From: Aurantimicrobium minutum | Lineage (GTDB): Bacteria > Actinomycetota > Actinomycetes > Actinomycetales > Microbacteriaceae | Length of the DNA stretch: 64,000 nt | Reading direction: 5' to 3' | NCBI RefSeq assembly: GCF_002355535.1 | Contig: NZ_AP017457.1 | Coordinates: forward strand, 1 to 64,000 | Shown: positions 1-14,886 of the stretch, one piece after another | How positions within the stretch are numbered: the first letter of the stretch is position 1 | Layout: every line of letters begins with the position of its first letter | Program-made: the position numbers and the translations under genes | Notes under the pieces: generated by a model | Told to the model about the DNA's origin: nothing | Databases searched by the model: none | The model's input: the letters and a program-made list of their open reading frames with translations, nothing else

Positions 1-43
1 CTTTACTCAGCCCCGCGCCTTTCGCTTCGAGAGTGGATGACAT
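1..43 (-). CDS. 5' end of a divergent gene leaving the window (partial)
   Basis: Only the first 14 codons are inside the window. Read on the minus strand, an ATG at 43-41 opens a frame (MSSTLEAKGAGLSK) that is open to the left edge. A good ribosome binding site, GAGGAG, lies 12-17 bases before the ATG. The 15 bases at 49-63 around this site are identical to the leader of the P450 gene (4666-4680), and a 20-bp operator candidate lies just upstream at 73-92, as it does for the P450. That makes a real co-regulated gene more likely than chance. Too little protein is visible to name a product. Confidence 0.5.
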   Translation of the reverse strand, partial: MSSTLEAKGAGLSK

Positions 44-72
44 TATTTGATCTCCTCATTGAGTTCATAAAA

Positions 73-92
73 ATCGTTTGGATAGAAACGAT
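73..92. promoter_or_regulatory. Operator candidate A (MarR-type palindrome)
   Basis: ATCGTTTGGATAGAAACGAT is a perfect 7-bp inverted repeat around a 6-bp centre. It matches four other sites at 196, 2523, 4681 and 6035. It lies 30 bp upstream of the partial minus-strand gene and 140 bp upstream of the acetoacetate-decarboxylase-like gene. The likely ligand is the MarR protein encoded at 4785-5279 (inference from co-location). Confidence 0.6.
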
Positions 93-195
93 GTTCCAAC
101 TTTGCCAACAACAGCCAGCTAGGTCAAGTTCAGACTATAACTTTTCTGAAAAGAATATGGAATATTTTCTGCAAACAAATCAGGACAAAAAAATG

Positions 196-215
196 TTTGT
201 TTGGATACGAATGAC
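196..215. promoter_or_regulatory. Operator candidate B
   Basis: TTTGTTTGGATACGAATGAC shares 13 consecutive bases (positions 3-15 of the site) with site C at 4681. It ends just before a TATAAA hexamer (217-222) that could be the -10 element of the gene starting at 233. Binding here would block polymerase, which suggests repression. Confidence 0.55.
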
Positions 216-232
216 CTATAAACTCTTATGTC

Positions 233-1048
233 ATGAGCACACTTAAAGGTTTCCTAGCCCCCAAAACTCCGTCGGGCAACAGCGCCATCATTCCAGAGAT
301 GCCTTGGCACTACTCCGGCACGCTACTGACTGTTGAGTACCTCACCGACCCTGCCAACGTTCGAGCCATCCTTCCTGCTGAGCTAGAACTCGCGGATGAG
401 CAGCCTGGTGCTGTTGCGTTAATTTGGGCTGACTGGCAGTCATGTTCTGATGACTTTGAAGAGTTGCTCGATCCTGACCGCTCGCAGTACATGGAGACCT
501 TCGTCGTCGTGCGTTGCAAGTACGAGGGCGTCACCTACAGTCGCTGCGTCGCTATCTGGGTAACCAAAGACTTTGCCATGGCTCGTGGTTGGTTCCAGGG
601 CTACCCCAAGAAGCTGGGATCGATGCACGCCACCCGTGTATATAACCGAGGCAAGGCAACTCCACGTCTTGAAGCAGGAGCAAAGTTCGGTGCAAGCCTA
701 GCGGCCTATGACCACCGCCTGGCTTCAGCGAAGGTGACGCTAACCGGTCCGGTAGAGAGCAACGGTTTTGTCAACGGTCACAAGATGCTTCACAGCCGCT
801 GGGTTCCTTCGATTACTCCCGGTGCAGGTAACTCACTCGACCAACTCATCACCATGGGGGGTGTCGACCTTGATCTGGGGCAGGCCTGGGGTGGCACAGC
901 TGAACTTACCCTCGGTGATTCGCAATGGGATGAACTTGGTTCACTGCTTCCCGTAGAGAAGATTCTTGGTGGTTACTACAGAGAAGTCGGAACCACCTTT
1001 AATGGAGGAACCTTGGTTGCTGATTTGGGATCTAACCCCAGCATCTAA
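233..1048 (+). CDS. Acetoacetate decarboxylase family protein
   Basis: A 271-residue protein of the acetoacetate decarboxylase (ADC) superfamily. The YPKKLG motif at about residues 124-129 contains the adjacent lysines (K126/K127) that correspond to the Schiff-base lysine pair of classical ADC. The following region MHATRVY and the C-terminal GGYY segment also fit. Family members decarboxylate beta-keto acids or act as aldolase/dehydratase-like enzymes on 2-oxo acids, so the substrate cannot be fixed from sequence. It stands alone, opens the catabolic island, and is preceded by operator candidates A and B. A TATAAA hexamer ten bases before the ATG implies a very short 5' leader with no obvious ribosome binding site. 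The bidirectional terminator at 1077 follows. Confidence 0.8.
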   Translation: MSTLKGFLAPKTPSGNSAIIPEMPWHYSGTLLTVEYLTDPANVRAILPAELELADEQPGAVALIWADWQSCSDDFEELLDPDRSQYMETFVVVRCKYEGVTYSRCVAIWVTKDFAMARGWFQGYPKKLGSMHATRVYNRGKATPRLEAGAKFGASLAAYDHRLASAKVTLTGPVESNGFVNGHKMLHSRWVPSITPGAGNSLDQLITMGGVDLDLGQAWGGTAELTLGDSQWDELGSLLPVEKILGGYYREVGTTFNGGTLVADLGSNPSI

Positions 1049-1076
1049 ATTTGTGCATCTCCCAATCGGTGCACAT

Positions 1077-1110
1077 AAAGAACCCCGGTGGATATCCACC
1101 GGGGTTCTTT
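1077..1110. terminator. Bidirectional intrinsic terminator
   Basis: A perfect 17-bp inverted repeat with no separate loop (AAAGAACCCCGGTGGAT and its complement) ends in TTT on either strand. It sits between two convergent genes and can serve both. Confidence 0.85.
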
Positions 1111-1132
1111 AATGCTTGCAGTGCTGGGCGGG

Positions 1133-2485
1133 TTAGTACGCCTCTGCGTATTCTGTGATTTCCCAGTCCGTAACCTCACGGGTTGCGGGGTCTTCAACAG
1201 CTGCTTCATATCGAGCGATCTCATCACGCTTGAGCACCATGAAGACATTGACCAATTCTTGTGAAAGCTGGTTGCGCAGTGCGTCGTCGACTTCGAGCGC
1301 ATCGAGAGACTGAGTGAAGGATTCAGGAAGAATTTCGGCATCCTCGTTGTCATAGGCCATACCCACTGCATCCGGGGGGCATTCCATCTCGTTGACAATG
1401 CCGTCAAGACCTGCAGCAAGGATTGCTGCAATGACGAGGTAAGGGTTTGCCGCACCATCGCCCACGCGAATCTCGAGGCGAGTACCTTGGCCACGCTCTG
1501 GTGGAACGCGAACCATGCACGAGCGGTTGTCGTATCCCCAGTTCGAGCGGTAGGGGGCAAGAGTGTCGGGGCCCAGTCGCTTGAACGAGTTGATGGTGGG
1601 GTTGGTGAAAGCGGTCAGGGCATTGGCGTGCTTCACGATACCTGCGATGAGCATCTTGGCTGCGGGGGACAGGTTGCCGCGACCATCGTGCATTTTGTTG
1701 ATGCCGTCCGCATCGGTGACGGAGAAGTGCAGGTGGAACCCTGATCCACCCTCATCGCTCCAAGGCTTGCCCAGGAAGGTTGCATGCTTTCCACGCTTGG
1801 CAATGATGTCCTTGACCGCGGACTTAAAGAAGAAGGTGCGGTCAGCAGCATCAAGCGCTTCGCTGTGCCAGAGATTTACTTCGTATTGGCTGGGGCTAAA
1901 TTCGTGGTTTCCGGCAAAGGCACCAATGTTGAGGCTGTCAAGCATGCGCATGAGATGCAGGAAATCACCGTCAGGATCAACCAATGTTCCCGTCATATAG
2001 ACACGTCCTGTTTGACTCAAGGAGCGTTGGAAGTTTCCGTTCTCGTCTTTTGTCGAGATGTAGAACTCAAGTTCTGGTCCCACGACAGGGTGGAGCCCCA
2101 GTGCCTGGTAGCTCTCAATGACCTTTTGCAGTACTGAACGAGGAGACATCATGTTGGGCTTGCCATCGGGATTGAACGCGTCACCAATGACATATGCCAC
2201 ACCTGGTTCCCAGGCAAGGGGTGAAATCGTACTGGGAACAATTTGGGTAAAGAAGTCCTGGAGGCCGTCATTGGCGATTCCGTTTGCTTCGTGGAACTCA
2301 CCACCTGTTGTGGTGGTCCACACGCCCTGGCTGAAAGCGGGACCATTGTGGCATGCTTTGTCGAGCTGACTGACAAGAATGTCCTTAGAGCGAGGAATAC
2401 CCAAGACATCTGAGTACATGACGCGCAGAACATCAATCCCGCGTTCCCCAAGGTCATCTCGAAGTTTTGTCAGATCGTTAACCAT
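1133..2485 (-). CDS. Glutamine synthetase-like gamma-glutamyl-amine ligase
   Basis: A 450-residue member of the glutamine synthetase fold. Visible motifs are GPELEFY (about 136-142) and HEFSPSQYEVN (194-204), which carry metal-binding acids, GGSGFHLHFS (246-255, ATP site), NPTINSFKRL (295-304) and the arginine-rich VPPERGQGTRLEIR (327-340). The sequence is closer to PuuA/GlnA3/GlnA4-type ligases, which join glutamate to an amine (polyamine, ethanolamine, isopropylamine or aniline), than to ammonia-assimilating GlnA. It lacks the C-terminal adenylylation region of GlnA1. Two gamma-glutamyl hydrolase/GATase genes and an aldehyde dehydrogenase nearby support a gamma-glutamylation pathway. Operator candidate D lies between it and the divergent GATase gene. 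The amine substrate is not determined. Confidence 0.8.
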   Translation of the reverse strand: MVNDLTKLRDDLGERGIDVLRVMYSDVLGIPRSKDILVSQLDKACHNGPAFSQGVWTTTTGGEFHEANGIANDGLQDFFTQIVPSTISPLAWEPGVAYVIGDAFNPDGKPNMMSPRSVLQKVIESYQALGLHPVVGPELEFYISTKDENGNFQRSLSQTGRVYMTGTLVDPDGDFLHLMRMLDSLNIGAFAGNHEFSPSQYEVNLWHSEALDAADRTFFFKSAVKDIIAKRGKHATFLGKPWSDEGGSGFHLHFSVTDADGINKMHDGRGNLSPAAKMLIAGIVKHANALTAFTNPTINSFKRLGPDTLAPYRSNWGYDNRSCMVRVPPERGQGTRLEIRVGDGAANPYLVIAAILAAGLDGIVNEMECPPDAVGMAYDNEDAEILPESFTQSLDALEVDDALRNQLSQELVNVFMVLKRDEIARYEAAVEDPATREVTDWEITEYAEAY

Positions 2486-2522
2486 TGCAACTCCTTTGTG
2501 GCAAATATGGTGTCAAAACGCT

Positions 2523-2542
2523 ATCGTTAGGATACTAACGAA
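2523..2542. promoter_or_regulatory. Operator candidate D
   Basis: ATCGTTAGGATACTAACGAA contains a perfect 7-bp inverted repeat TCGTTAG-GATA-CTAACGA. It lies 38 bp upstream of the glutamine synthetase-like gene and about 80 bp upstream of the divergent GATase gene, so it could control both. It shares the central GGATA with sites A-C. Confidence 0.6.
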
Positions 2543-2620
2543 TAATACCTTCGTGCTAGCGCACAGCCAAAATTTCATCGTTATTCTGTGAATACCCATT
2601 CTCTATCCCAGGAGTGCTTT

Positions 2621-3328
2621 GTGAAAGCTTTAGTAATTCAGCACGATCACGTGAGCCCCACGGGCCCACTAGGGCGCCGACTAAAACACCACGGCTTTGA
2701 GATCACAGAGTTTCTTGTTGTCCCTAAAGAGTCGTTCAAAGCGCCCAACGTTACGGTGGATTTTCCCGATACAGACGATTTTGACTTAGTTGTCTTTCTG
2801 GGAGCTCCCTGGGGTGCATGGGATGACAATTGCATAGGAAATTGGCTCACTCCTGAAATAGAGCTGTGTCGCGAGCTCGTCACATCAAACAAGCCAGTAC
2901 TGGGCATTTGTTTTGGCGGACAGCTCATGGCACGTGCATTGGGTGGGACGGTGGCACCTGGACAACATCCAGAGATTGGCTGGACCTATATCTGGAGTGA
3001 CGATCAATCGCTCGTGAGCAATGGTCCGTGGTTCCAATTCCACTATGACCGCTTTACTGTTCCACCGGGAGCTCAGGAAATTGCTCGTAACCCCGTAGCC
3101 CCACAAGCCTTCACCATTAACCGCTCATTGGGCGTGCAGTTTCATCCAGAGCTAGATTCTGCAGCCCTCAAAGGCTGGCTCGATGAAGGCGGTTGGCCCA
3201 GCGTTGCAGAAGATCACCAAGATGGAGAAATAATGCTTGCACAAACCAAGGCTGAAGATGCCGCTGGTGAAGCGCGTACCTATGCACTGGTTGACGCATT
3301 TCTCACGAGAGTTGCTCAGTTGGTTTGA
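2621..3328 (+). CDS. Class I glutamine amidotransferase-like protein
   Basis: The protein has 235 residues when started at the GTG at 2621. This start is chosen because AGGAG at 2610-2614 has ideal spacing; a longer frame begins at 2588. The triad of class I GATases is visible: the nucleophilic Cys in GICFGGQ (about residue 97) and His/Glu in QFHPE (175/177). It is divergent from the glutamine synthetase-like gene across operator D. In aniline degradation a GS-like gene (atdA1/tdnQ) is paired with a GATase-like gene (atdA2/tdnT), so the pairing here is suggestive. A simple gamma-glutamyl hydrolase role is equally possible. Confidence 0.75.
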   Translation: MKALVIQHDHVSPTGPLGRRLKHHGFEITEFLVVPKESFKAPNVTVDFPDTDDFDLVVFLGAPWGAWDDNCIGNWLTPEIELCRELVTSNKPVLGICFGGQLMARALGGTVAPGQHPEIGWTYIWSDDQSLVSNGPWFQFHYDRFTVPPGAQEIARNPVAPQAFTINRSLGVQFHPELDSAALKGWLDEGGWPSVAEDHQDGEIMLAQTKAEDAAGEARTYALVDAFLTRVAQLV

Positions 3329-3345
3329 CGTACACGGCACACATT

Positions 3346-3376
3346 AAATAGCCCCCGAGATCATCGGGGGCTATTT
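3346..3376. terminator. Bidirectional intrinsic terminator
   Basis: A 13-bp perfect stem (AAATAGCCCCCGA) with a 5-base loop ends in TTT on the plus strand and in TTT from AAA on the minus strand. It separates the convergent GATase and P450 genes. Confidence 0.85.
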
Positions 3377-3423
3377 CTATGGAGGCCTTTACTGCGGTGA
3401 GACGCCCGCAGGAGGCAACATCG

Positions 3424-4662
3424 TTAGCGAAGGGTTACCTTCACAGGCATTGATTTGATGCCGTGGATGAAGTTGGAGTGCACAAAGTCCATAGGGCCGG
3501 TGCGCTCCATCTTGTCGATTCGGCGAATGACATCTTCAAACATGATGATGAGCTCAATACGTGCAAGAGCGTTACCCAAGCACATGTGGGGGCCACCACG
3601 ACCGAATGTCATGTGTTCATTTGGCATGCGAGTGGGGATCATCTTCTCAGGGTCTGCGAAAACCTCTGGGTCACGGTTTCCAGATGCAAACCAGGTGACG
3701 ACTTTTTGGCCGGCCTTAATTTCCTTGCCACCAAATTCCACGTCTTTGGTTGCGGTGCGACGGAAATGGTAAATGGGGCTTGCGTAGCGTAGGAATTCTT
3801 CAACTGCCCAAGGGATGTCCTGAGGGTTTTCCTGCAGGTAGGCAATGACCTCAGGGTTGTTCATGAGGTTGTTCATGGTGTGAGCGATGGTCTGACGAGT
3901 GGTCTCGTGACCCGCCACAATCAGCAGCAGGAAGTTGGTGTGGTATTCCTGATCGGTCAATGGCTTGCCGTCCATAGGAACGCTGTTAATCATTGTGGAG
4001 ATGATGTCAGTTCCATTGCGGCCAAGACGCTGACGCTTGAGTTCATCACCGTAAGCAAAAACTTCAAGAGCTGCTGGCGAACGGAAAGGCACCAAGCGGT
4101 ACTTTTCACTTTCAGGGTCGGTCGGAAGAAGATCGGTCAGGCTGGGGTCGCTGGAACCGATCATGGCGTTACCCCACCGAATGATGTTCTCAATATCGGT
4201 GTCTGGGATTTCTAGAAGTCGTGCGAGAACACGAATGGGGTAATCAGCCGCAACATCGTGCAAGAAGTCGAACTCACCCTTAGCGAATGCATTGTCCAGC
4301 GTTGTCGCAGTGAGGCCACGAAGGAAGGTCTCGTACTTTGCAACATTGTTGGGGGTGAAATCATTCTGAAGCAGACGGCGCAGCGCGCGGTGACGAGTAC
4401 CGTCAGAGTCGAGCAAAGAACGACGTGCCTCTTCTTGATCAGGCTCGAGCTCTTCCAGGTTGGTGAAGTGGCTACTGGTGAATGTTTCAGGGTCACGTAG
4501 CACTTTCACAATGTCGTGGTAGCGCATAACAGACCAGAAGCCAGAACCACCGTCTGTTTCATCGCTCCAGTTCACAGGGTCGTTTGCACGAAGTTCGGCA
4601 AACAGATCCCACGGGGCACCGTTATCAAAAACGTCGAGGTCGGCGAGGGAGCGAGTGGCCAT
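3424..4662 (-). CDS. Cytochrome P450
   Basis: A 412-residue soluble bacterial P450 monooxygenase. The I-helix oxygen-binding motif AGHETT is at about 250-255, ExxR (EFLR) at 289-292, and the heme-ligand loop FGRGGPHMCLG ends with Cys361. This loop has one residue more than the usual FGxGxHxCxG. The same 11-residue form occurs in actinobacterial CYP124/125/142-type enzymes (from memory), which suggests that clade. Electrons probably come from the ferredoxin at 9332 and the reductase at 9539. The leader contains GAGGAG before the ATG, and operator C overlaps the promoter. It acts in the cytoplasm; the substrate is unknown. Confidence 0.9.
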   Translation of the reverse strand: MATRSLADLDVFDNGAPWDLFAELRANDPVNWSDETDGGSGFWSVMRYHDIVKVLRDPETFTSSHFTNLEELEPDQEEARRSLLDSDGTRHRALRRLLQNDFTPNNVAKYETFLRGLTATTLDNAFAKGEFDFLHDVAADYPIRVLARLLEIPDTDIENIIRWGNAMIGSSDPSLTDLLPTDPESEKYRLVPFRSPAALEVFAYGDELKRQRLGRNGTDIISTMINSVPMDGKPLTDQEYHTNFLLLIVAGHETTRQTIAHTMNNLMNNPEVIAYLQENPQDIPWAVEEFLRYASPIYHFRRTATKDVEFGGKEIKAGQKVVTWFASGNRDPEVFADPEKMIPTRMPNEHMTFGRGGPHMCLGNALARIELIIMFEDVIRRIDKMERTGPMDFVHSNFIHGIKSMPVKVTLR

Positions 4663-4665
4663 GAA

Positions 4666-4680
4666 GATCTCCTCATTGAG
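4666..4680 (-). repeat. 15-bp leader repeat shared with position 49-63
   Basis: GATCTCCTCATTGAG is identical at 49-63 and here. On the minus strand it includes the GAGGAG ribosome binding site of the P450 gene. In both places an operator candidate lies upstream, so the whole promoter/leader looks duplicated. Confidence 0.6.
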
Positions 4681-4700
4681 ATTGTTTGGATACGAACAAT
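4681..4700. promoter_or_regulatory. Operator candidate C
   Basis: ATTGTTTGGATACGAACAAT has a perfect 6-bp inverted repeat. It sits 19 bp upstream of the P450 start, next to a minus-strand TATATT that could be its -10 element, and 84 bp upstream of the MarR gene. It is placed to repress the P450 and perhaps to autoregulate the MarR gene. Confidence 0.65.
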
Positions 4701-4784
4701 ATAAACAATAATAACCAGAAGTGCTGACGAAGAGTCAAGTCTTACCGCCACAATGGTGTGAGAAAGTTTTTTGGGAATGGTGAA

Positions 4785-5279
4785 ATGACTGGAAGCCACA
4801 CACTCGGCGAAACTGAAGCACGCGTTGCTAACCGCCTGAGTCACATGCAACTCGACTTTGAGGCGATGGCTGTCACTTCCAATTTGTTTCGCGCAGCGAG
4901 TGCTGTGCGCAATCACTTTGAACGAAATGTTCTTGCCGAGAGCGGGTTGAGCTGGACTGCTTTTGTTGTTCTCTGGGTGACCTGGATTTGGGAACCAGCA
5001 GAAACTCGCGACATCGCAGCAGAGGCCGGAATCTCCAAGGCAACGCTGACAGGTGTGTTGAGCACACTCGAAAAGATGGACCTTGTGTTGCGCTCTCGCA
5101 GCACTGAAGATGGTCGACTTGTGTTGGTCACGTTGACCACCAAGGGACAGACCTTGATGGAGACATTGTTTCCAGCCTTCAACCGTCAAGAGGTTGAAGT
5201 TGTTTCACCTGTGGCAGATAACAAGCGCGGTGACTTAGCTGACATGCTGCGTGCGATTACAGCAAAAATCGAAGGCTAG
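4785..5279 (+). CDS. MarR family transcriptional regulator
   Basis: The protein has 164 residues from the ATG at 4785; a GTG at 4758 would add nine. The winged helix-turn-helix lies at about residues 70-121, with recognition helix region ISKATLTGVLSTLEK and the wing RSTEDGRLVLVTLT typical of MarR proteins. MarR dimers bind palindromes of about 16-20 bp, usually as repressors released by an aromatic or phenolic ligand. The gene is divergent from the P450, and five matching palindromes lie in promoters around it, so it is the best candidate for the island's regulator. Its stop overlaps the convergent gene at 5276 by four bases. Confidence 0.85.
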   Translation: MTGSHTLGETEARVANRLSHMQLDFEAMAVTSNLFRAASAVRNHFERNVLAESGLSWTAFVVLWVTWIWEPAETRDIAAEAGISKATLTGVLSTLEKMDLVLRSRSTEDGRLVLVTLTTKGQTLMETLFPAFNRQEVEVVSPVADNKRGDLADMLRAITAKIEG

Positions 5280-5974
5280 TTCTTAGCGGCGAAAGATGCT
5301 GCTTCACTGACAAAACGAGAAAGTATCTCGAGCTGCGCAGCATTGGTGTCGTAGTTATCTTCGGGGTGCCACTGCACACCGAAGGCCCATCCAGGAGCAT
5401 TAATCTTCACTGCTTCGACGTAGCCTTCTGTTGAGCGTCCAATCACTTCCAGGCCAGGGGCAACCTGATCAATCATTTGATGGTGATAACAGGAAGCCTG
5501 CAACGAAGCCGTGCTTAAGCCCAATTCGTCGAGGTATTTCTCAATGGTGACGGGAGCAACATGGTGCTGGTGCGGCTGCTCCATGTGTTGCACAAGTGTT
5601 CCGCCCAGTGCCACGTTCGTGATTTGAAGCCCTCGACAAATGGCAAAGAACGGGATTGAGGTCTGCAGGGCATGTTTCACCAAAGAGATGTCTGCTTCAT
5701 CAGCAAGATCGTCAACGTCGTAAACGTGTTCCGAAGAAATCTCTTGGCCGTATGTTCGAGGGTTGATGTCAGCCCCACCAGGCATCAGCACGCCATCTAT
5801 TCCGCGGAGGCGATCTGACCAGTCGCTTCCCGACACAGGCAACATAGTCAGAGGTTCGCCGCCGGCGGCCCAGACCATTTCTGCTAACCGACGAGCGGTC
5901 ACAATGGCGGCGTATCTCGTTGCTGATGTGCTTTCAGCAAACCTGGCAAGAATGGCAATCCGGGGGCGAGCCAT
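5276..5974 (-). CDS. Gamma-glutamyl-GABA hydrolase-like (PuuD-type) peptidase C26
   Basis: The protein has 232 residues from the ATG at 5974, chosen because GAAAGG is well spaced before it; upstream ATGs at 5980 and 5989 are in frame. GVLMPGGADINP (61-72), the nucleophile in AICRGLQ (Cys113) and QWHPE (His203, Glu205) place it in peptidase family C26 with PuuD. Members hydrolyse gamma-glutamyl amides such as gamma-glutamyl-GABA in the glutamylated putrescine pathway. Together with the GS-like ligase and the aldehyde dehydrogenase it would complete ligation, oxidation and release. It is divergent from the aldehyde dehydrogenase with operator E between them. Confidence 0.85.
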   Translation of the reverse strand: MARPRIAILARFAESTSATRYAAIVTARRLAEMVWAAGGEPLTMLPVSGSDWSDRLRGIDGVLMPGGADINPRTYGQEISSEHVYDVDDLADEADISLVKHALQTSIPFFAICRGLQITNVALGGTLVQHMEQPHQHHVAPVTIEKYLDELGLSTASLQASCYHHQMIDQVAPGLEVIGRSTEGYVEAVKINAPGWAFGVQWHPEDNYDTNAAQLEILSRFVSEAASFAAKN

Positions 5975-6034
5975 CAGCATACCTTTCAAATAAATGTCTG
6001 ATTTATCTTGTGTGACTTTTATATCCTAGTAATA

Positions 6035-6054
6035 ATCATTAGTATACGAATGAT
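6035..6054. promoter_or_regulatory. Operator candidate E
   Basis: ATCATTAGTATACGAATGAT lies in the 112-bp divergent region between the PuuD-like and aldehyde dehydrogenase genes. It is a 6-bp inverted repeat (extended to 7 bp by flanking AA/TT) with the same 20-bp geometry as sites A-D and the TATACGAA core of B and C. Confidence 0.55.
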
Positions 6055-6086
6055 TACTTCAACACGATGATGTGAGGACCTGACCC

Positions 6087-7550: not shown

Positions 7551-7552
7551 CC

Positions 7553-8461: not shown

Positions 8462-9332
8462 ATATCGTCGAATCCTGCTTGACGGCGCTGCGGTGCAAAC
8501 CGTACGCGACGGAGAGTTCCTTGTTGCCGCCGACGGCCGTCGTGTAGCTATCGAAGATGCGCAACATCTGCCACCTTCGGAGCCCACCAAGATCATTGCT
8601 GTTCACCTGAACTACGACAGTCGCACCAAGGAGTTCATGACCAAGCTCCCTGATGCCCCCACCTACTTCCACAAGCCCATCACGGCAATCAACAGCCACA
8701 AGGGGGCTGTTGTGCGCCCCGAAGGCTGCAAGTGGTTGAACTATGAGGGTGAAATCGTCATCGTGATCGGAAAGACCTGCCGCAACATTAGCCCAGAGGA
8801 AGCCGGCGACTACATCGCCGGATACACCGTGGGTAATGACTATGGACTGCACGACTTCCGCGACACTGACGCCGGCTCCATGTTGCGTGTGAAGGGTTCA
8901 GACACCCTGGCTCCCGTCGGCCCTGGTCTGGTTACTGACTGGGACTTCCGCAACAAGATGATTCGCACCTATGTCAACGGTAAGGTCAAGCAAGAAGACA
9001 ACACTGACAACATGGAATGGGACATGCACTATCTGGTTGCAGATATTGCGCGCACCATCACCTTGGTTCCTGGTGACATACTCTTTTCGGGAACCCCCGC
9101 CTTCTCACGTCCAGTTCAACCTGGTGATGTTGTCGAGGTTGAAGTTGAAGGCCTCGGTAAGTTGACCAACCACATCGTTGTCGGCCCCACTCCGATCCGC
9201 ACAGACGTGGGAGCGCAACCCACTGAGAGTGAAGAAGTAATTTCAACCGCTTTAGGAGGGGATTGGGAGTTCCGCGGAATTCGCACACCCTCTAAAGACC
9301 TATATCCATCAACCGTGGAGGAAAAAGAATAA
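8454..9332 (+). CDS. Fumarylacetoacetate hydrolase family protein (HpaG/HpcE-like)
   Basis: The GTG at 8454 gives 292 residues and overlaps the previous stop by eight bases; an ATG at 8418 would add twelve. FAH-fold metal ligands are visible: NYEGEIVIVIGK with two glutamates, and GYTVGNDYGLHDFR with an aspartate. SGTP near VPGDILFSGTPA is also conserved. In meta-cleavage pathways such enzymes decarboxylate or isomerise 5-oxopent-3-ene-1,2,5-tricarboxylate and its product. The gene is tightly coupled to both neighbours, including a one-base overlap with the ferredoxin. Confidence 0.8.
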   Translation: MTEYRRILLDGAAVQTVRDGEFLVAADGRRVAIEDAQHLPPSEPTKIIAVHLNYDSRTKEFMTKLPDAPTYFHKPITAINSHKGAVVRPEGCKWLNYEGEIVIVIGKTCRNISPEEAGDYIAGYTVGNDYGLHDFRDTDAGSMLRVKGSDTLAPVGPGLVTDWDFRNKMIRTYVNGKVKQEDNTDNMEWDMHYLVADIARTITLVPGDILFSGTPAFSRPVQPGDVVEVEVEGLGKLTNHIVVGPTPIRTDVGAQPTESEEVISTALGGDWEFRGIRTPSKDLYPSTVEEKE

Positions 9333-9529
9333 TGCTCAAGATTCATGTCGACATGGAAAAGTGCCAGCACTACGGACAGTGCGTCTTTGACGCACCAAAC
9401 GTATTCCGTCTCAACGATGACGACAAGCTGGAATACGAAGCAACGGCGGATGACAGCGAACAGGACAACGTCCAGCTCGCAGTAGACATCTGCCCTATGC
9501 AGGCAATTTCCTTCACAAAAGCAGACTAA
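9332..9529 (+). CDS. [3Fe-4S] ferredoxin, P450 partner, CxxYxxC type
   Basis: A 65-residue one-cluster ferredoxin. Cys11, Cys17 and Cys54 (the last in ICPMQAI) are the three expected cluster ligands. The position of the fourth cysteine is Tyr14 (CQHYGQC), so a [3Fe-4S] cluster is expected. Such non-cysteine residues are known in actinobacterial P450 ferredoxins, where His is common. It starts on the last base of the preceding stop region and is followed by the ferredoxin reductase. Together these form a class I P450 redox chain for the P450 at 3424-4662, although that gene is separated by several kilobases and is on the other strand. Confidence 0.9.
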   Translation: MLKIHVDMEKCQHYGQCVFDAPNVFRLNDDDKLEYEATADDSEQDNVQLAVDICPMQAISFTKAD

Positions 9530-9538
9530 GTTCAGCTG

Positions 9539-10753
9539 ATGACCCGTCCCGTAGTTATTGTCGGGGCCTCAATGGGTGGACTTCGCGCCGCGGAAACACT
9601 CCGCAAGAGTGGTTACGAGGATCGTCTGGTCGTCATTGGCGACGAACCACACGCACCGTATAACCGACCACCGCTGTCCAAAGAGGTTCTCGCTGAACAG
9701 GTAGACCACGCCGCGGTGGCCTTTCCTCTTTCAGAAGTACTTGACGATGTCGAGTGGGTGTTAGGCAACGCAGTCGTCAGTGCAGACCTCGAGTCACAGT
9801 CCATCACGCTCGCAGATGGTCAACATCTGGAATACAGCTGCCTCATTATTGCAACCGGCCTTCGTCCGCGAAGGCTTGATTTGCCCGGCCAACCACAATC
9901 TGGTGCTCACGCAATTCGCACTCTCGATGACGCGATGTCATTAAGAGCAGAGCTTAAGCCTGGTGCGAAGGTTGTGGTTTACGGAGCAGGCTTTATTGGA
10001 TGCGAAGCAGCTGCCACGGCAACAAAGCTCGGTGCCACTGTCACCGTCGTGGGCAAGGGTCCGGTTCCTATGTTGCGTCCGCTTGGGCAGCAGCTCGCTG
10101 AAGATATTCAGCGTCGCCACGAGGCACACGGTGTTCGTTTTGTGATGAACACCTACCTGACCAGAATCCTGGGGGAGGAGAAGGTCACCGGTGTTGTGTT
10201 GGATAACGGGGAAACTCTGGAATGTGATGTTCTCATTGAGTCCATCGGTTCACTTCCAAATACGGAGTTCCTCGAAGGTAATGACATTGACATCGAGTCA
10301 GGTGTTCATGTCAATTCCACGCTGCATGCATTGCGTAAAGATGGAACTGCGTGGAGTAACGTCTTTGCAATAGGTGATGTGGCTCGATTCCCCATCCCAC
10401 AGTTTGACCCCACAACTCGTCGCGTTGAGCACTGGAATATTCCGACAGAAATGGCGCGAAAGGTAGGCAAGCAGGTTGCTCTGCAATTGGGAGAAGATCT
10501 CGAGGCACACGCAACAGAGCTCGCGAAAAACTTTGCACCCATCCCTTCGTTCTGGAGTGATCAATTTGAGGTGAGCCTGCTTGCCTACGGATTGTTAGAT
10601 CAAGGTGAAGAGGTGCGACTTCTTGAGGGGGAAGTTGGGGGAGATTGCATCTACGGATATTTCAAGGGCGATGACATGGTGGGAGTATGCGGAATAGGCA
10701 TGCGTTCAAAAGTTATGGGTTACCGCAATAAAGTGGGCATTACGGTTTCATAA
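9539..10753 (+). CDS. FAD-dependent ferredoxin reductase
   Basis: A 404-residue flavoprotein of the putidaredoxin/rhodocoxin reductase type. The N-terminal FAD-binding GASMGGLRAAE (9-19), the second dinucleotide site VYGAGFIGCEAA for NAD(P)H in the middle, and the FAIGDVA motif of the FAD domain are present, followed by a C-terminal reductase domain. It passes electrons from NAD(P)H to the adjacent ferredoxin. It lies nine bases downstream of the ferredoxin. Confidence 0.9.
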   Translation: MTRPVVIVGASMGGLRAAETLRKSGYEDRLVVIGDEPHAPYNRPPLSKEVLAEQVDHAAVAFPLSEVLDDVEWVLGNAVVSADLESQSITLADGQHLEYSCLIIATGLRPRRLDLPGQPQSGAHAIRTLDDAMSLRAELKPGAKVVVYGAGFIGCEAAATATKLGATVTVVGKGPVPMLRPLGQQLAEDIQRRHEAHGVRFVMNTYLTRILGEEKVTGVVLDNGETLECDVLIESIGSLPNTEFLEGNDIDIESGVHVNSTLHALRKDGTAWSNVFAIGDVARFPIPQFDPTTRRVEHWNIPTEMARKVGKQVALQLGEDLEAHATELAKNFAPIPSFWSDQFEVSLLAYGLLDQGEEVRLLEGEVGGDCIYGYFKGDDMVGVCGIGMRSKVMGYRNKVGITVS

Positions 10754-10795
10754 AATTCATTCAGGTTTACTTCTCAACGATGTGAAAGGCATATC

Positions 10796-11854
10796 ATGAC
10801 CACTCAGGTTCGCGCTGTCGGAGCGAAGTCAGAAAAAGCACCTTTGGAAACAATAGAAATCACACGCCGTGATGTCCTGCCTGAAGACGTGCGTATTGCC
10901 ATTGACTACTCAGGAATTTGTCACTCGGACATTCACACCGTTCGTGGTGACTGGGGAGATATGCCCTACCCCGTCGTGCCAGGTCACGAAATCATTGGTC
11001 GAGTTGTTGAAGTTGGCGACAAAGTAACCAAATACTCTGTCGGTGACCTTGTGGGTGTGGGCGTCATAGTCAAAAGCTGTGGAGAATGTGACAACTGCAA
11101 GGCGGGTGATGAACACTTCTGCCAAGGGCCTACTGGGCCTCTGCTGACCTATGCAGAGGCAGACCCTTACATGCCAGGCTCCTCCACCCATGGGGGATAC
11201 TCACGTGAAATCGTGACCACGGAGAAATTCGTTTACCGTATTCCCGAAAACCTCGACAAAGCAGCCGCTGCACCTTTGCTGTGTGCTGGAATCACTGTCT
11301 ATTCCCCTCTGAAGCACTGGGGCGCAGGCCCAGGTAAAACCGTCGGTGTAGCAGGTGTTGGAGGGCTTGGCCACATGGCAGTGAAGTTTGCGCATGCACT
11401 CGGTGCCCACACTGTTGCATTGACCACAAGCCCTGAAAAGGTCGAGCTGTGTAAGTCTCTCGGCGCCGATGAAGTTCTCATCACAAGCGACAGCGAAGCG
11501 ATGAAGGCATCAGCAGAAAAGTTTGATCTCATCATCTCAACACTTCCCGGAGACCACGATATGAATCCATATCTTGACCTTCTTGGTCAAGATGGTAGCT
11601 ATGTCGTTGTAGGTGCTGTGGGGAACATGACGCACTCTTTCTCCCTACCTAAGTTGATGAAGCGCCACCGTTCCATTGCAGGATCTCAAATTGGTTCTAC
11701 CCGGGAGACCCAAGAAATGTTGGATTTCTGTGGCGAGCACAACATCGTCGCTGATATTGAACTCATCAATGCTGACTACATCAACGAAGCTTATGACCGA
11801 GTGGTCGCAGGTGATGTGCAATTCCGGTTCGTTATTGACGCCCAAACAATATAG
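10796..11854 (+). CDS. Zinc-dependent alcohol dehydrogenase (CAD-like MDR family)
   Basis: A 352-residue medium-chain dehydrogenase. The catalytic-zinc motif GICHSDIHT, GHE in the VPGHEIIG segment, four structural-zinc cysteines in CGECDNC and the later HFC, and the nucleotide-binding GVGGLGHMA are visible. The pattern resembles cinnamyl-alcohol/aryl-alcohol dehydrogenases of the YahK/AdhC class, which interconvert aldehydes and alcohols, usually with NADP(H). It is probably the last large gene of the 6087-12019 operon and may act on an aromatic alcohol or aldehyde intermediate. A GAAAGG motif precedes the ATG. Confidence 0.85.
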   Translation: MTTQVRAVGAKSEKAPLETIEITRRDVLPEDVRIAIDYSGICHSDIHTVRGDWGDMPYPVVPGHEIIGRVVEVGDKVTKYSVGDLVGVGVIVKSCGECDNCKAGDEHFCQGPTGPLLTYAEADPYMPGSSTHGGYSREIVTTEKFVYRIPENLDKAAAAPLLCAGITVYSPLKHWGAGPGKTVGVAGVGGLGHMAVKFAHALGAHTVALTTSPEKVELCKSLGADEVLITSDSEAMKASAEKFDLIISTLPGDHDMNPYLDLLGQDGSYVVVGAVGNMTHSFSLPKLMKRHRSIAGSQIGSTRETQEMLDFCGEHNIVADIELINADYINEAYDRVVAGDVQFRFVIDAQTI

Positions 11855-11863
11855 GAACTCAAG

Positions 11864-12019
11864 ATGACTGAAGCACAATCGGAACGCCCAGCAGCTTCCT
11901 ATCCCACTACAGCGAGACCAGATTCATCTTCTGAGGAGTACCAGAAGATGGATAAGCTCGCGAAAATGATGGAACATCAAGTAGATGTTCTCCGGGGAAC
12001 TGCCGAAGAGCAGAATTAA
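11864..12019 (+). CDS. Small hypothetical protein, 51 residues, end of the P450/meta-cleavage operon
   Basis: An ATG at 11864 opens a 51-codon frame that starts nine bases after the alcohol dehydrogenase stop, with AGGAA upstream, and ends two bases before the convergent agmatine deiminase stop. The N-terminal half is rich in Pro, Ser and Thr. The C-terminal half (KMDKLAKMMEHQVDVLRG) looks like a charged amphipathic helix. No homologue is recognised. The spacing and ribosome binding site support a real gene, but it could be a chance frame. Confidence 0.5.
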   Translation: MTEAQSERPAASYPTTARPDSSSEEYQKMDKLAKMMEHQVDVLRGTAEEQN

Positions 12020-12021
12020 AG

Positions 12022-13050
12022 CTACTCCTTGGGTTGCTGCTGCGTAATGCAGTGAATACCGCCACCACGAGCAAACAGCGGGCGAGCGTCCACGAGCACG
12101 ATTTCACGACCGGGGTAGGCCTTTGAGAGTACCTTTTTGGCTTTCTCATCGTTTGCGTCATCGAATGCACACAAAATCACTGCGCCGTTGCACACGTAAT
12201 GGTTGATGTAGCTGTAGTCGACCCAGCCTTCGTCATCCTGCAATACTTCCGGTGCAGGCACTGAAATGACGTTGAGCTTGTTTCCTTCTGAATCTCGAAC
12301 CGCCTTGAGGACTCTGCGCACCTCTTGGCTGATCCAGTAGTCGGGGTGTTCTTGGTTCTTTTGATCATGAAAAAGAACAGTGTCCTCGTTGGCAAAACAC
12401 GCCACGATGTCAATGTGTCCACGAGTTCCGAATTCGTCATAGTCACGCGTGAGACCTCGTGGCATCCAGATCACGTGATCAACTCCGAGCGTGCGATGTA
12501 GTTCTGCTTCTACTTGTTCTTTAGTCCAGTCAGGGTTGCGGCCTGGATCAAGCTGAACTGTTTCGGTAATCATGACGGTGCGAGAACCATTGACGTGGAT
12601 TCCACCACCCTCATTGGTCAGTGGGGAGTCAATCCGGGGAACACCGATGGAGTCCAGAATCTTGGTGGCTGCTTGGGAATCGTGTTCCCAGCTTGCCCAA
12701 CTTTGGCCGCCCCAGCCATTGAAAATCCAGTTCACTCCAGCGAGCTTTCCTGAGCTGTCGCGAACAAACGTGGGACCAATGTCTCGCATCCACGCGTCAT
12801 CGAGCTGGGCAACCAAGATCTCAACCTGAGGATCTAACCACTTCTTGGCTTCGTCAACTGCACTGGGATCAACCAGGATGGTGACCGGCTCGAAGCGCAC
12901 GATGGTGTTGGCCACATCTGACCAACACTTTCGTGCTTCATTGGCGAGCTCCTCCGTTTCACCGAGGGTGTAACCGGAGGAAGGCCAAGCCATCCAAGTG
13001 CGCTCATGCTCAGCCCATTCAGCTGGCATGTGGAATTCACGAGATGTCAC
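12022..13050 (-). CDS. aguA: Agmatine deiminase
   Basis: A 342-residue member of the peptidyl-arginine-deiminase fold. Typical agmatine deiminase segments are visible: MPAEW near the start with a following WMAWP, NGWGGQ, NEGGGIHVNG, RGHIDI and the C-terminal GGGIHCITQQQP with the nucleophilic Cys334. It converts agmatine to N-carbamoylputrescine and ammonia. The start is a GTG at 13050 with AGGAA upstream; an internal ATG at about 13029 would remove seven residues. It is downstream of the decarboxylase gene (gap 19 bases), so the pair may form an amine operon, although arginine decarboxylase activity of the neighbour is not shown. Confidence 0.9.
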   Translation of the reverse strand: MTSREFHMPAEWAEHERTWMAWPSSGYTLGETEELANEARKCWSDVANTIVRFEPVTILVDPSAVDEAKKWLDPQVEILVAQLDDAWMRDIGPTFVRDSSGKLAGVNWIFNGWGGQSWASWEHDSQAATKILDSIGVPRIDSPLTNEGGGIHVNGSRTVMITETVQLDPGRNPDWTKEQVEAELHRTLGVDHVIWMPRGLTRDYDEFGTRGHIDIVACFANEDTVLFHDQKNQEHPDYWISQEVRRVLKAVRDSEGNKLNVISVPAPEVLQDDEGWVDYSYINHYVCNGAVILCAFDDANDEKAKKVLSKAYPGREIVLVDARPLFARGGGIHCITQQQPKE

Positions 13051-13069
13051 GATAAGACCGTATTCCTAG

Positions 13070-14545
13070 TTAGACCATCGTGTCGAGGATTTGAACCAAA
13101 GATTCATAGGTTGTTCGGGGATTCACAATGGCAAAGCGTGTGTTGGGCTCGCCCTTGTGTGAACTGGGAACAACGAATCCGATGCCATCTGCCAGCAGCT
13201 TGTTGGACCACTTAGTGTAATCCTCCAGAGTCCAACCCTTTTTCACGAACACCACTACAGAGAGCTGGGGGTCACGAACTAGCTCAAGATCGGGACGACG
13301 ACGGATCTCATCAGCAATCTTGTATGCCAGTTGAATGTTCTGCTCGATGGCTTCACGGTAGGCAGAGACGCCATAGGTTGCCAATGAGAACCAGAGTGGC
13401 AGTCCACGGGGACGACGCGTCAGGTTGTAGGCATAGTCACTCGGGTTCCACTCTTCAGGGTTCTCGAGTGCATCAAGGTACTCAGCGTGCTGGGTGTGCG
13501 TAACCCGACCAAGCTCGGGATCGCGGTACACCAGGGCACACGCATCGAAAGGAGCAAACAACCACTTGTGTGGGTCAACAATGAACGAATCCGCCAGGGC
13601 AACGCCCGCGAAAAGGTGCTTCGTGCTCGGCGCCAGCATCGCTGCGATGCCGTAGGCACCGTCCACGTGGAACCACACATCGTGTGCCTTGGTGACATTA
13701 CCCACTTCTTCGAGTTCATCTACGATGCCAAAGTTGGTTGTTCCACCGGTTGCCACCACAGCAAAGATGCCGTCCCAGTCGCCCTCGAGAGTCTCGGCTA
13801 GTGCCTGACCGGTGAGGCGGCCTTCTGCATTGACGGGAACAGGAACAATGTCCACATCCATCACACGGGCAGCTGCTTTGAGAGACGAGTGAGCTTCAGA
13901 GCTGCAGGCAAAGCGCCAGCGGGTTGGCGCTGCCTTCCCAGAGGCCTTGAGGGCCTCTGTGGCGGTGTGACGCGCTGCAACCAAAGCTGAGAGGTTTCCC
14001 AAGGTTCCACCCTGCACAAAGACGCCTCCAGCGCCTTCTGGCAAGCCAGCTTCACGGGCTAACCACTCGAGTACCTGGTTCTCGGCATACACCGCACCGG
14101 CACCCTCCATCCAGGAGCCACCATAAATGGTTGAAGCCGAGACGATGAGGTCGAACAGGGTTGCAGCCTCGGTGGGAGCACAGGGAATAAATGAGAGGTA
14201 GTTCGGGTGATCGTTAGAAATCGTTGCCTCAGCAAGCACATTCTCAAAAAGATTCAGTGCTTCCAATCCGCCTAAGCCCTCTTCGGTGACCGTATCGGGG
14301 ACTTCCTGACGAAGCTGACTGATGGTTTTGGGGCCATCCAGCGGTGGTGGGTCGTAATTCATGCGTCGGCGAGCATATTCAAAAACTTGCTCGCGAAGCT
14401 TCATTGTTTCGAGGTCGACAGTGTGCATGTGATTGCCGTTGGGAGTTGTCATGTCGTGAGACATCCACTTCAGTGTTTCATCCGCCGAATGCCCGCCACG
14501 ACGAGTGTCGTGCGACTGGGGCCCTACGGTGGGCTCAGACCACAT
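13070..14545 (-). CDS. Group II pyridoxal-dependent amino acid decarboxylase
   Basis: A 491-residue PLP enzyme of the aromatic-L-amino-acid/tyrosine/glutamate decarboxylase group. His219 in SEAHSS would stack on the cofactor, Asp295 in HVDGAYG would bind its pyridine nitrogen, and Lys327 in DPHKWLF would form the Schiff base. The N-terminal FISF-like segment (YLSFIPCAPTEAA) matches aromatic amino acid decarboxylases. It would produce an amine such as tyramine, phenethylamine or dopamine. The start is uncertain; ATGs at 14461 and 14452 are also in frame. No operator of the A-E type is seen upstream, so it may be regulated separately. Confidence 0.85.
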   Translation of the reverse strand: MWSEPTVGPQSHDTRRGGHSADETLKWMSHDMTTPNGNHMHTVDLETMKLREQVFEYARRRMNYDPPPLDGPKTISQLRQEVPDTVTEEGLGGLEALNLFENVLAEATISNDHPNYLSFIPCAPTEAATLFDLIVSASTIYGGSWMEGAGAVYAENQVLEWLAREAGLPEGAGGVFVQGGTLGNLSALVAARHTATEALKASGKAAPTRWRFACSSEAHSSLKAAARVMDVDIVPVPVNAEGRLTGQALAETLEGDWDGIFAVVATGGTTNFGIVDELEEVGNVTKAHDVWFHVDGAYGIAAMLAPSTKHLFAGVALADSFIVDPHKWLFAPFDACALVYRDPELGRVTHTQHAEYLDALENPEEWNPSDYAYNLTRRPRGLPLWFSLATYGVSAYREAIEQNIQLAYKIADEIRRRPDLELVRDPQLSVVVFVKKGWTLEDYTKWSNKLLADGIGFVVPSSHKGEPNTRFAIVNPRTTYESLVQILDTMV

Positions 14546-14664
14546 TACCGGGGAAGTTCGACACGCCGAAACCCAGAAGCCAAAAAACTTTTTTCTGGCG
14601 AGAAAACGCGTAAATATGCGGTTCTCTAGGCAAACTCACAGCACCTCATAAAAAAACTCTCAAA

Positions 14665-14678
14665 CACTACATGTAGTG
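14665..14678. promoter_or_regulatory. Perfect 14-bp palindrome upstream of the -35 element
   Basis: CACTACATGTAGTG is a perfect palindrome that ends two bases before the -35 hexamer of the promoter at 14681. This is a typical place for an activator or repressor. It resembles half of an NrdR box pair, but the second box is missing and no nrd gene follows. Confidence 0.5.
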
Positions 14679-14680
14679 GA

Positions 14681-14710: not shown

Positions 14711-14726
14711 GATAACTCACCGCAGG

Positions 14727-14757: not shown

Positions 14758-14775
14758 AGTTTTATGGAGGCACAA

Positions 14776-14862: not shown

Positions 14863-14886
14863 AAACCTTGCAGCAGTAGCTGCCCC

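Follow-up and report, generated by a model that had tools for sequence, protein, structure and literature searches.

A MarR-linked gene core in Aurantimicrobium minutum that may encode an N-capped route from a phenethylamine to GABA

INTRODUCTION

The Puu pathway takes gamma-glutamylated putrescine to GABA, and gamma-glutamyl-4-aminobutanal is the substrate of PuuC. Aniline degradation by the tdn/atd systems likewise pairs a GS-like ligase with a GATase-like hydrolase, followed by ring oxidation and meta-cleavage; there, an aniline dioxygenase converts the gamma-glutamyl amide to catechol (PMC4539516). The GlnA4 ethanolamine pathway of Streptomyces employs a GS-like ligase, dehydrogenases, and a GATase on gamma-glutamyl intermediates (PMC6529630), and the role of meta-pathway aldolase has been suggested for two ADC-like proteins of Saccharolobus (PMC7820114). 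Here we analyze a gene island of Aurantimicrobium minutum that shares components with these systems. The window, that is, the whole 64,000-nucleotide stretch analyzed, comprises bases 1-64000 of the 1,622,386-base contig NZ_AP017457.1. In our preferred reading, which we consider fairly probable, the core of the island would encode a MarR-controlled catabolic pathway in which a phenethylamine, most likely tyramine, is N-capped and carried through to GABA.

RESULTS

Gene content of the island

The island is already under way at base 1, and the start of the unit lies outside the window; the window opens inside it because this is the point at which the 1.62 Mb, probably circular Aurantimicrobium chromosome was opened. 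At the opposite end of the contig lies the APC permease of the core, which is divergently paired with the ADC-like gene in the relatives fetched. Every family that the initial annotation had named was recovered where it had been placed. The predicted family assignments are clear, and the island proteins score below the NCBIfam equivalog cut-offs. The genes are as follows.

L011:18547-19947, - strand: APC permease of the core
233-1048, + strand: ADC-superfamily protein, MppR/Sbi-ADC-like (PF06314, 191 bits)
1133-2485, - strand: predicted GS-like gamma-glutamyl-amine ligase (PF00120, 309 bits)
2588-3328, + strand: predicted class-I GATase-type gamma-glutamyl amide hydrolase (PF00117)
3424-4662, - strand: cytochrome P450 (PF00067)
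4758-5279, + strand: MarR-family regulator (PF01047; best NCBIfam model HpaR, 58.8 bits, below its cut-off of 121.2)
5276-5989, - strand: predicted peptidase-C26 (PuuD-like) gamma-glutamyl hydrolase (PF07722, 147 bits)
6087-7550, + strand: HpaE-like semialdehyde dehydrogenase (best NCBIfam model TIGR02299, 526 bits, below its cut-off of 638)
7553-8461, + strand: LigB/HpaD-like extradiol dioxygenase (PF02900; best NCBIfam model TIGR02298, 133 bits, below its cut-off of 316); 7553 is the conserved start
8418-9332 (ORF limits), + strand: single-domain FAH-fold HpaG-C-like decarboxylase/isomerase (PF01557, 189 bits), with a conserved start near 8454 by eye
9332-9529, + strand: P450-type ferredoxin, 65 aa, named from its motif CQHYGQC...CPMQA without a family scan
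9539-10753, + strand: ferredoxin reductase (PF07992, 204 bits)
10796-11854, + strand: Zn-alcohol dehydrogenase/aldehyde reductase, a facultative follower outside the core (Ahr best NCBIfam model, below cut-off)
12022-13050, - strand: agmatine-deiminase-like neighbor outside the core (PF04371, 370 bits), without operator
13070-14545, - strand: group II PLP decarboxylase neighbor outside the core (PF00282, 198 bits), without operator

The core thus comprises the genes from the APC permease to the ferredoxin reductase. Residue conservation was counted in matches of at least 40% identity. The GS-like protein scores 247.7 bits against the PuuA model (cut-off, 650), and its Glu/ATP motifs are kept in relatives. 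The DGSS of solved GS chains, an Asp-Gly-Ser-Ser loop that we take to be the ammonium-binding loop of functional glutamine synthetase, is unmatched in the window protein and aligns there to unrelated residues or a gap. The nucleophile Cys of the class-I GATase is kept in 57/57 matches and the Cys of the C26 hydrolase in 48/48; the latter protein reaches 79.5 bits against the PuuD model PRK11366 (cut-off, 266). The haem-ligand Cys of the P450, whose closest solved relative is CYP125MRCA (339 bits), is kept in all 59 matches, and the ferredoxin cysteines in 66-67. In the HpaD-like enzyme two His and one Glu are conserved in 79/79, 80/80, and 80/80 matches, respectively.

For the HpaG-C-like protein, TIGR02303 (205 bits, below its cut-off of 276) ranks second to PRK12764 (220 bits). 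It is the only PF01557 match in genome G000, and HpaH, which we take to be a member of this FAH-fold family, is missing there. The HpaI family PF03328 has three matches in G000: a RipC-like one is among them, one below the cut-off is presumably pyruvate kinase, and a 274-aa frame lies over the cut-off, with a similar-scoring frame in the island-less genome G005. The HpaF isomerase family PF02962 matched in 0/9 genomes, and the control was likewise silent.

The ADC-like protein scores 186 bits against the MppR model (cut-off, 380), and MppR (4jm3) is its best solved relative. When aligned with MppR, it retains the lysine of the PKK/PKQ motif of aldolase-dehydratases, presumably the catalytic Schiff-base lysine, and the lysines of its YPKKLG motif are kept in 50/50 matches. 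We propose that this protein acts as both hydratase and retro-aldolase.

Conservation of the core

Related loci were examined as the best 80 of 220 confirmed ones, a set skewed to near relatives, and a gene was counted as present when tblastn gave a match of at least 30% identity. Among those of the best 80 with 9 kb upstream, the core genes were present as follows: HpaE 49/49; GS, GATase, and MarR 48/49 each; P450 47/49; ADC and APC 45/49 each; and C26 36/49. With 4 kb downstream, HpaG was present in 59/59, the reductase in 56/59, and the ferredoxin in 55/59. Since C26 is missing from 13/49 clusters, the GATase may be the true final hydrolase. The arrangement exceeds chance, since it recurs across related genomes; the core is found together there and not as unrelated subsets.

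The initial annotation had treated the whole region as one island. This holds for the ligase, the P450 chain, and the meta-cleavage genes, which are co-inherited and apparently co-regulated, and not for the alcohol dehydrogenase, agmatine deiminase, and decarboxylase, which fall outside the core. Among loci of the best 80 with enough flank, the first is linked in 4/59, the second in 4/40, and the window-type decarboxylase in 10/40 with distant relatives counted in. A role of the agmatine deiminase and decarboxylase as pathway feeders was not supported for the window, given this poor linkage and their lack of an operator. Elsewhere, two groups of decarboxylases of the same fold occur beside clusters in 9 of the best 80 loci each (the first in five Salinibacterium loci and in four with the window-type gene), and such decarboxylases lie beside the cluster in 7 of 20 deep loci. 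Because they recur in this way, an amino-acid-to-amine feeder is possible at these other loci; the cluster-linked enzymes show only distant likeness to aromatic ones.

The dioxygenase was found in 50/398 genomes of a family sample and 39/396 of a phylum sample, the organism's own and same-genus genomes counted in both. The 20 deep loci were hand-picked for contig extent and spread from 37 phylum matches (G000 and G022 excluded); the GATase is present in only 4 of them and the ferredoxin and reductase in only 3. L090 jointly lacks the P450, ferredoxin, and reductase and keeps the remaining core genes except ADC. L093 has HpaE/D/G, C26, and a distant APC; GS, GATase, ADC, and P450 were not found within its 15.6 kb. 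The two P450 matches of L073 resemble one broken frame.

A shared operator and its regulon

A 20-bp palindrome is common to all four divergent promoters of the core. The window holds seven matches at five places against 0.04 expected, and no site was found in it beyond 6054. The predicted sites, given without strand, are as follows.

73-92: operator site 1, ATCGTTTGGATAGAAACGAT, in the APC permease/ADC-like intergenic region
196-215: operator site 2, TTTGTTTGGATACGAATGAC, directly upstream of the ADC-like gene
2523-2542: operator site 3, ATCGTTAGGATACTAACGAA, in the GS/GATase divergent promoter
4681-4700: operator site 4, ATTGTTTGGATACGAACAAT, in the P450/MarR divergent promoter
6035-6054: operator site 5, ATCATTAGTATACGAATGAT, in the C26/HpaE divergent promoter

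Divergent intergenic regions of the best 80 of 220 loci (both genes found, 20-700 bp apart) were scored with a position matrix trained on these very regions, and 206 of 209 outscored every shuffle. In 7/7 island-bearing Aurantimicrobium genomes an operator also precedes three genes not linked to the cluster (gabT, an SSADH-like gene, and efeU), and a site occurs in 17 of the 20 deep loci against a mean of 0.15 loci in dinucleotide shuffles. These sites provide independent support because none was used in training. We propose that the MarR protein is a repressor acting at this operator, and the core very likely forms one co-regulated pathway.

In the sole island-less relative compared, G005, a single control genome, the gabT and SSADH operator sites are erased (GabT identity to G000 is 75% for G005 vs 77% for G004 and G007), and no close copy of the MarR was found. 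For efeU, a gene not located in G005, the result is the absence of an operator site there and not its loss. With a looser pattern, island-bearing genomes contain 10-16 sites each vs 1-4 in a reversed control, and G005 contains 4 vs 1; three of these four adjoin no regulon gene. The fourth lies near a gene that is cydA-like by eye. A katG site fits the operator pattern in G000, G002, and G003 only.

As a general feature the gabT operator fails outside Aurantimicrobium: 24 island-bearing genomes gave one weak match in 32 regions, and 18 island-less genomes gave none in 24. This count omits the gabT of G033 and G040 (contig edge), the incomplete G379:C181, and two copies linked to clusters, G100:C8 and G162:C18; G199 had no match.

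Links to GABA metabolism

Other clusters adjoin genes of GABA metabolism. ALDHs at least 50% identical to the PuuC-like ALDH occur in 6/20 deep loci, and the one such enzyme scanned (L198) has PuuC as its best NCBIfam model (565 bits, below the cut-off of 850). In L081 an aminobutyraldehyde dehydrogenase over cut-off follows the ferredoxin reductase, and ALDHs placed by position, without a scan, lie similarly in L057, L077, and L078. G022 carries a PuuC-like ALDH whose aligned start has an operator-like site (16.7) 68 bp upstream and which is followed by C26, GATase, and GS. Both G100 and G162 have a gabT over cut-off roughly 5 kb away from the dioxygenase, with further cases in L026 and L027, and gabT-like genes occur in 5/20 deep loci.

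No operator was found for the PuuC-like ALDH of Aurantimicrobium itself (L011:16916-18424), which looks to be part of an ethanolamine unit; for these two reasons the dehydrogenase step of the cluster is left unassigned in this genus. The regulon gabT and SSADH-like genes, together with the linked PuuC-like and aminobutyraldehyde dehydrogenases, suggest that the amine has a side chain of two carbons that ends as GABA. Among the substrates first suggested (aromatic amines including an aniline, or an alkylamine), arylethylamines therefore appear to be the best class, and aniline and simple alkylamines are disfavored.

DISCUSSION

Proposed pathway

Judged from the enzyme families, the amine would be imported by the APC permease, and the GS-like enzyme would couple glutamate to it. 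The P450 with its ferredoxin and reductase would add a second ring hydroxyl, converting gamma-glutamyl-tyramine to gamma-glutamyl-dopamine, and the LigB dioxygenase would cleave the ring adjacent to the diol with the nitrogen still capped. The HpaE-like enzyme may then oxidize the semialdehyde, the HpaG-like enzyme may decarboxylate the product, and the ADC-like enzyme may hydrate the 2-oxo-enoate and split it by retro-aldol cleavage. By this arithmetic the -CH2CH2-NH-Glu side chain would end, beside pyruvate, as gamma-glutamyl-4-aminobutanal. An ALDH would convert this aldehyde to gamma-glutamyl-GABA, a hydrolase would release glutamate and GABA, and GABA would be converted to succinate by GabT and SSADH. 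With the glutamyl cap in place, no free amine would be available to cyclise onto the product of ring cleavage. We consider an N-capped route to GABA likely and tyramine itself a plausible substrate.

Alternative explanations

The same N-capped pathway might instead serve dopamine, 3-methoxytyramine (with the P450 as O-demethylase), or phenethylamine, a possibility that overlaps with our preferred reading and that we regard as unlikely though worth keeping in view. Genes that are VanA- and VanB-like by eye adjoin the cluster in G022, L094 and L100 have more than one P450 match, and L090 has none, all of which suit such substrates, but the single core P450 of the remaining P450-bearing loci fits a single hydroxylation of a monophenol.

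It is also conceivable, but rather doubtful, that nitrogen is removed early, the P450 or a hydrolase with an oxidase splitting the C-N bond so that free homoprotocatechuate proceeds to succinic semialdehyde by the Hpa route. In cyclic amine degradation, a P450 encoded beside a GS-like gene attacks the carbon next to nitrogen, and we counted this for early removal along with the HpaE/HpaD/HpaG-type trio, the HpaR-like MarR, and the SSADH-like gene of the regulon. However, the regulon gabT and the linked PuuC-like and aminobutyraldehyde dehydrogenases would then have no role, HpaH is missing, and one more ring hydroxylase would be needed.

A chance juxtaposition of two or more unrelated pathways is very improbable for the core, which shares an operator in four divergent promoters and is conserved into distant lineages of the phylum, although it is true of the alcohol dehydrogenase, agmatine deiminase, and decarboxylase and of the GS/ADH/ALDH/GATase unit on the far side of the contig end, which have no operator and are poorly linked. 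An aniline-type route, in which the ligase forms a gamma-glutamyl-anilide that is oxidized to catechol with loss of nitrogen, shares the GS-like/GATase-like pair and meta-cleavage with aniline degraders (PMC4539516), but no Rieske dioxygenase was found among the 19 ORFs scanned (233-18521), and the GABA genes of the regulon would require a two-carbon amine side chain, so this route can be virtually discounted.

Significance and comparison with known systems

If the N-capped phenethylamine pathway is correct, it would be a dedicated route in many freshwater and soil actinobacteria, including small-genome lake bacteria, and a so far undescribed bacterial use of a common biogenic amine, whose genes standard annotation would record as scattered members of the Hpa, Puu, and P450 sets. 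It would account for how the cell deals with the amine while avoiding a ring-fission product that cyclises on itself, assign a role to a branch of the ADC superfamily, and make the operator a regulon marker for other genomes. In the open-access listings searched we found no description of such a pathway, and there seems to be a slightly better than even chance that this undescribed combination holds: a ring hydroxylated and meta-cleaved under a gamma-glutamyl cap, an ADC enzyme as hydratase and aldolase, and a MarR regulon with unlinked GABA and iron-uptake genes.

Riboflavin/lumichrome catabolism, considered because it also pairs an actinobacterial P450 with an extradiol dioxygenase and ends in hydration and retro-aldol cleavage, was rejected since its gene set differs: it uses a TPP enzyme, xanthine oxidase, and Rieske dioxygenase, and the part of PMC12746152 available contains no glutamine synthetase or gamma-glutamyl term. 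The GlnA4 pathway has no ring chemistry; it matches well the neighboring unit L011:13741-18424, which lacks the core operator. Compared with the tdn/atd systems, a P450 here takes the place of the aniline dioxygenase, and the nitrogen seems to be retained until GABA. ADC aldolases of the MppR/Sbi00515 type are the nearest solved relatives of the ADC-like protein and share its lysine motif, but MppR belongs to enduracididine biosynthesis, whereas we propose the reverse reaction in catabolism.

The island resembles the Hpa pathway in having HpaE-, HpaD-, and HpaG-type enzymes in one gene run with an HpaR-like MarR. It differs in adding the GS-like ligase, glutamyl hydrolases, and P450 chain, in having an ADC-like enzyme in place of HpaH, and in a regulon that extends to GABA genes. 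With the Puu pathway it shares a gamma-glutamyl ligase, a C26 hydrolase, a PuuC-like ALDH in some clusters, GABA transaminase, and SSADH; in contrast to that pathway, its proteins score below the PuuA, PuuC, and PuuD equivalog cut-offs, and an aromatic ring would open between ligation and the aldehyde step. Aromatic meta-cleavage would thus be merged with the Puu route, and tyramine (C6-C2-N) would yield pyruvate and gamma-glutamyl-GABA.

Gene content and the conserved core

All the gene families that the initial annotation named in the island were found in the window. The window covers bases 1-64000 of a single contig (1,622,386 bases). Because this contig starts inside the island, the first core gene lies at the far contig end, in the stretch preceding window base 1 (L011):

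L011:18547-19947, reverse strand: APC permease

In the relatives fetched, this gene adjoins that of the ADC-like enzyme. The dioxygenase is present in six of the seven same-genus genomes (G005 is without it), and the core is kept in all five whose cluster region was fetched (G001, G003, G004, G006, and G007). In G006, some 51 kb separate the ADC-like and permease genes, along with both of their operator sites, from the remaining cluster (L215, G006:C1:1524000-1540000), as if after a large insertion or rearrangement.

When the dioxygenase was used to scan genome contigs, 220 relatives were recovered, and linkage was counted only in those loci among the best 80 of the 220 that had enough flank. 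The core recurs across these genomes. The alcohol dehydrogenase, agmatine deiminase, and decarboxylase, which had been counted as island partners, are, unlike the core, linked in just 4/59, 4/40, and 10/40 loci, respectively. The latter two genes (window 12022-14545) remain adjacent in L023, L024, L026, and L027 and may form a small unit of their own.

Table. Occurrence of core genes beside the dioxygenase (a, about 24% identity or more)
Product	Linked loci	Distant loci of the phylum
HpaE	49/49	18/20
HpaG	59/59	13/20
GS-like ligase	48/49	16/20 (+1 closer to the second GS)
P450	47/49	16/20
ADC-like enzyme	45/49	13/20
MarR	48/49	10/20
APC permease	45/49	10/20 (APC-like, a)
C26	36/49	7/20
GATase	48/49	4/20
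Ferredoxin	55/59	3/20
Reductase	56/59	3/20

The 20 distant loci also contained a PuuC-like aldehyde dehydrogenase (ALDH) in six cases and a gabT-like gene in five, and neither agmatine deiminase nor the alcohol dehydrogenase in any. From these tallies, the ring-and-ligase center predates the precise combination of genes. In three genomes of 9-10 Mb (L197-L199), the ligase, P450, ferredoxin, reductase, HpaE, HpaD, HpaG, ADC-like enzyme, C26, APC permease, and PuuC-like ALDH are encoded in a single stretch. Two distant lineages have a flavin-monooxygenase-like gene, by eye of the LLM type, alongside the cluster or its operator (L100:12251-13228 and L021:2406-3341).

A common operator

The four divergent core promoters share a palindrome. 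Its dyad, TCGTT-N8-AACGA, was found in 91/209 promoter regions, with 0.1 expected from mononucleotide shuffles, and a matrix scan placed 43/44, 55/56, 62/62, and 46/47 regions of the four promoters above every shuffle. Operator-like sites were also found in 17 of the 20 distant loci, which were absent from matrix training (shuffles, mean of 0.15 loci). The window has five sites, against a chance expectation of 0.04 for the pattern:

Starts 73, 196, 2523, 4681, and 6035: operator sites

The rest of the window and the 20 kb preceding it contained none. From the way the operator is distributed and from the site in its own promoter, we infer that the MarR protein is the putative binder.

Proposed pathway

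GS-like ligases of this family form gamma-glutamyl amines, and a P450 with its ferredoxin and reductase carries out hydroxylation. A LigB-type extradiol dioxygenase, an HpaE-type dehydrogenase, and an HpaG-type decarboxylase lead to a 2-oxo-enoate, which is normally followed by two enzymes, HpaH and HpaI. We propose that the ligase would make a gamma-glutamyl amine, that the P450 system would hydroxylate it, and that the dioxygenase and the HpaE- and HpaG-type enzymes would take the product to the 2-oxo-enoate with the nitrogen still capped. The only FAH-fold match in the A. minutum genome (G000) is the HpaG-like protein; HpaH is therefore missing. Its step, together with the following cleavage, may fall to the ADC-like enzyme, since an aldolase-dehydratase run backwards performs exactly hydration and retro-aldol cleavage. 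The nearest relatives of this protein are MppR and another solved ADC-superfamily protein, and the lysine motif is kept in 50/50 matches.

An amine with a two-carbon side chain would thus yield gamma-glutamyl-4-aminobutanal. Its further conversion is predicted to need a dehydrogenase (either PuuC-like or for aminobutyraldehyde), a hydrolase of gamma-Glu-GABA, a transaminase for GABA, and a succinate-semialdehyde dehydrogenase (SSADH). For the first, PuuC is the best family (below cut-off) of an ALDH in L198, an aminobutyraldehyde dehydrogenase above cut-off occurs in L081, and ALDHs hold a similar position in L057, L077, and L078. PuuD is among the solved relatives of C26. In G100 and G162, some 5 kb separate the dioxygenase gene from a gabT gene above cut-off, as is likewise seen in L026 and L027; the gabT-like gene of L195 is best matched by a general aminotransferase family (TIGR00700, 363 bits, below cut-off). 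A run of PuuC-like ALDH, C26, GATase, and GS genes in G022 has an operator-like site 68 bp ahead of its aligned start.

Unlinked operator sites

In Aurantimicrobium, the operator also precedes gabT and the SSADH-like gene. The remainder of the A. minutum genome has the pattern (three mismatches or fewer) at only four further places (reversed control, 0), one of them weak. One lies 82 bp upstream of the predicted gabT start (895033-896274; TIGR00700 above cut-off), and another (L106, G000:C1:934566-934585) lies upstream of efeU, a ferrous iron permease gene with its family above cut-off, which fits a pathway of heme, iron-sulfur, and non-heme iron enzymes. An extra matrix site is 58 bp upstream of an ALDH gene (75292-76764) that matches SSADH best among the families (546 bits, below the cut-off of 646). 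The gabT, SSADH-like, and efeU sites are each present in all seven island-bearing Aurantimicrobium genomes.

In the island-less G005, the operator is erased before gabT and the SSADH gene, while the region proximal to the start codon still aligns; no site around either gene scores above 8, and the closest match to MarR has 28% identity. GabT identity to G000 is 74.7% in G005 versus 76.7% in G004 and G007, and SSADH identity is 87.8% versus 93-95% in G001, G004, G006, and G007. Judged by these sequences, this single genome is a fair control for gabT and a somewhat more distant one for SSADH.

Other sites were seen. Another of the four places in G000 (L107, G000:C1:457378-457397) precedes katG (family above cut-off), and G002 and G003 likewise have an operator-like site ahead of this gene. 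G004 has a strong additional site (L119, G004:C1:821326-821345) before Zn-alcohol-dehydrogenase-like and ABC-transporter-like genes, not among the sites listed for the other Aurantimicrobium genomes. A similar palindrome near a cydA-like gene in G005 (L121, G005:C1:1493492-1493511), G007, and G001 is possibly the site of another regulator.

Substrate range and points against the proposal

Most loci have one core P450 per cluster, which fits one hydroxylation of a monophenol, tyramine first. L090 lacks the P450, ferredoxin, and reductase and keeps GS, MarR, C26, GATase, APC, and HpaE/D/G, an absence that hints at a catechol substrate such as dopamine. Additional P450 matches occur in L094 and L100, and VanA-like and VanB-like genes (by eye) adjoin the cluster of G022 (L019:17202-19217); both are hints of other ring patterns, and the latter suggests methoxylated substrates there.

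Several findings count against the proposal. The PuuC-like ALDH of Aurantimicrobium belongs to the separate, operator-less unit across the contig end; C26 is absent from 13/49 loci; GATase, ferredoxin, and reductase are seldom found in the distant loci; L093 has the HpaE/D/G part with no GS or P450 within 15.6 kb; and the gabT operator appears restricted to one genus. The island proteins fall short of equivalog cut-offs, as expected if the substrate is new, which leaves room for other chemistry too.

Comparison with known systems

In the titles and abstract openings of the open-access matches listed, which mostly exclude subscription journals, no paper concerned catabolism via gamma-glutamyl-tyramine or -dopamine; by their titles, those with such wording addressed other topics.

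Two further gene sets lie across the contig end:

L011:4926-7461: RipB/Ich-like and RipC/Ccl-like genes (best families, below cut-offs)
L011:13741-18424: second GS-like ligase, GATase, alcohol dehydrogenase, and PuuC-like ALDH

The first is probably an itaconate degradation set; by eye, a CaiB-like CoA transferase gene accompanies it, and electron-transfer flavoprotein and acyl-CoA dehydrogenase genes come after it. The second, for which no island operator was found in the 20 kb before the window, resembles the GlnA4 ethanolamine cluster described in PMC6529630 and looks like a unit of that type, outside the island pathway. For the ADC-like enzyme, PMC7820114 puts forward a related aldolase role for two phenol-induced ADC-like proteins of Saccharolobus.
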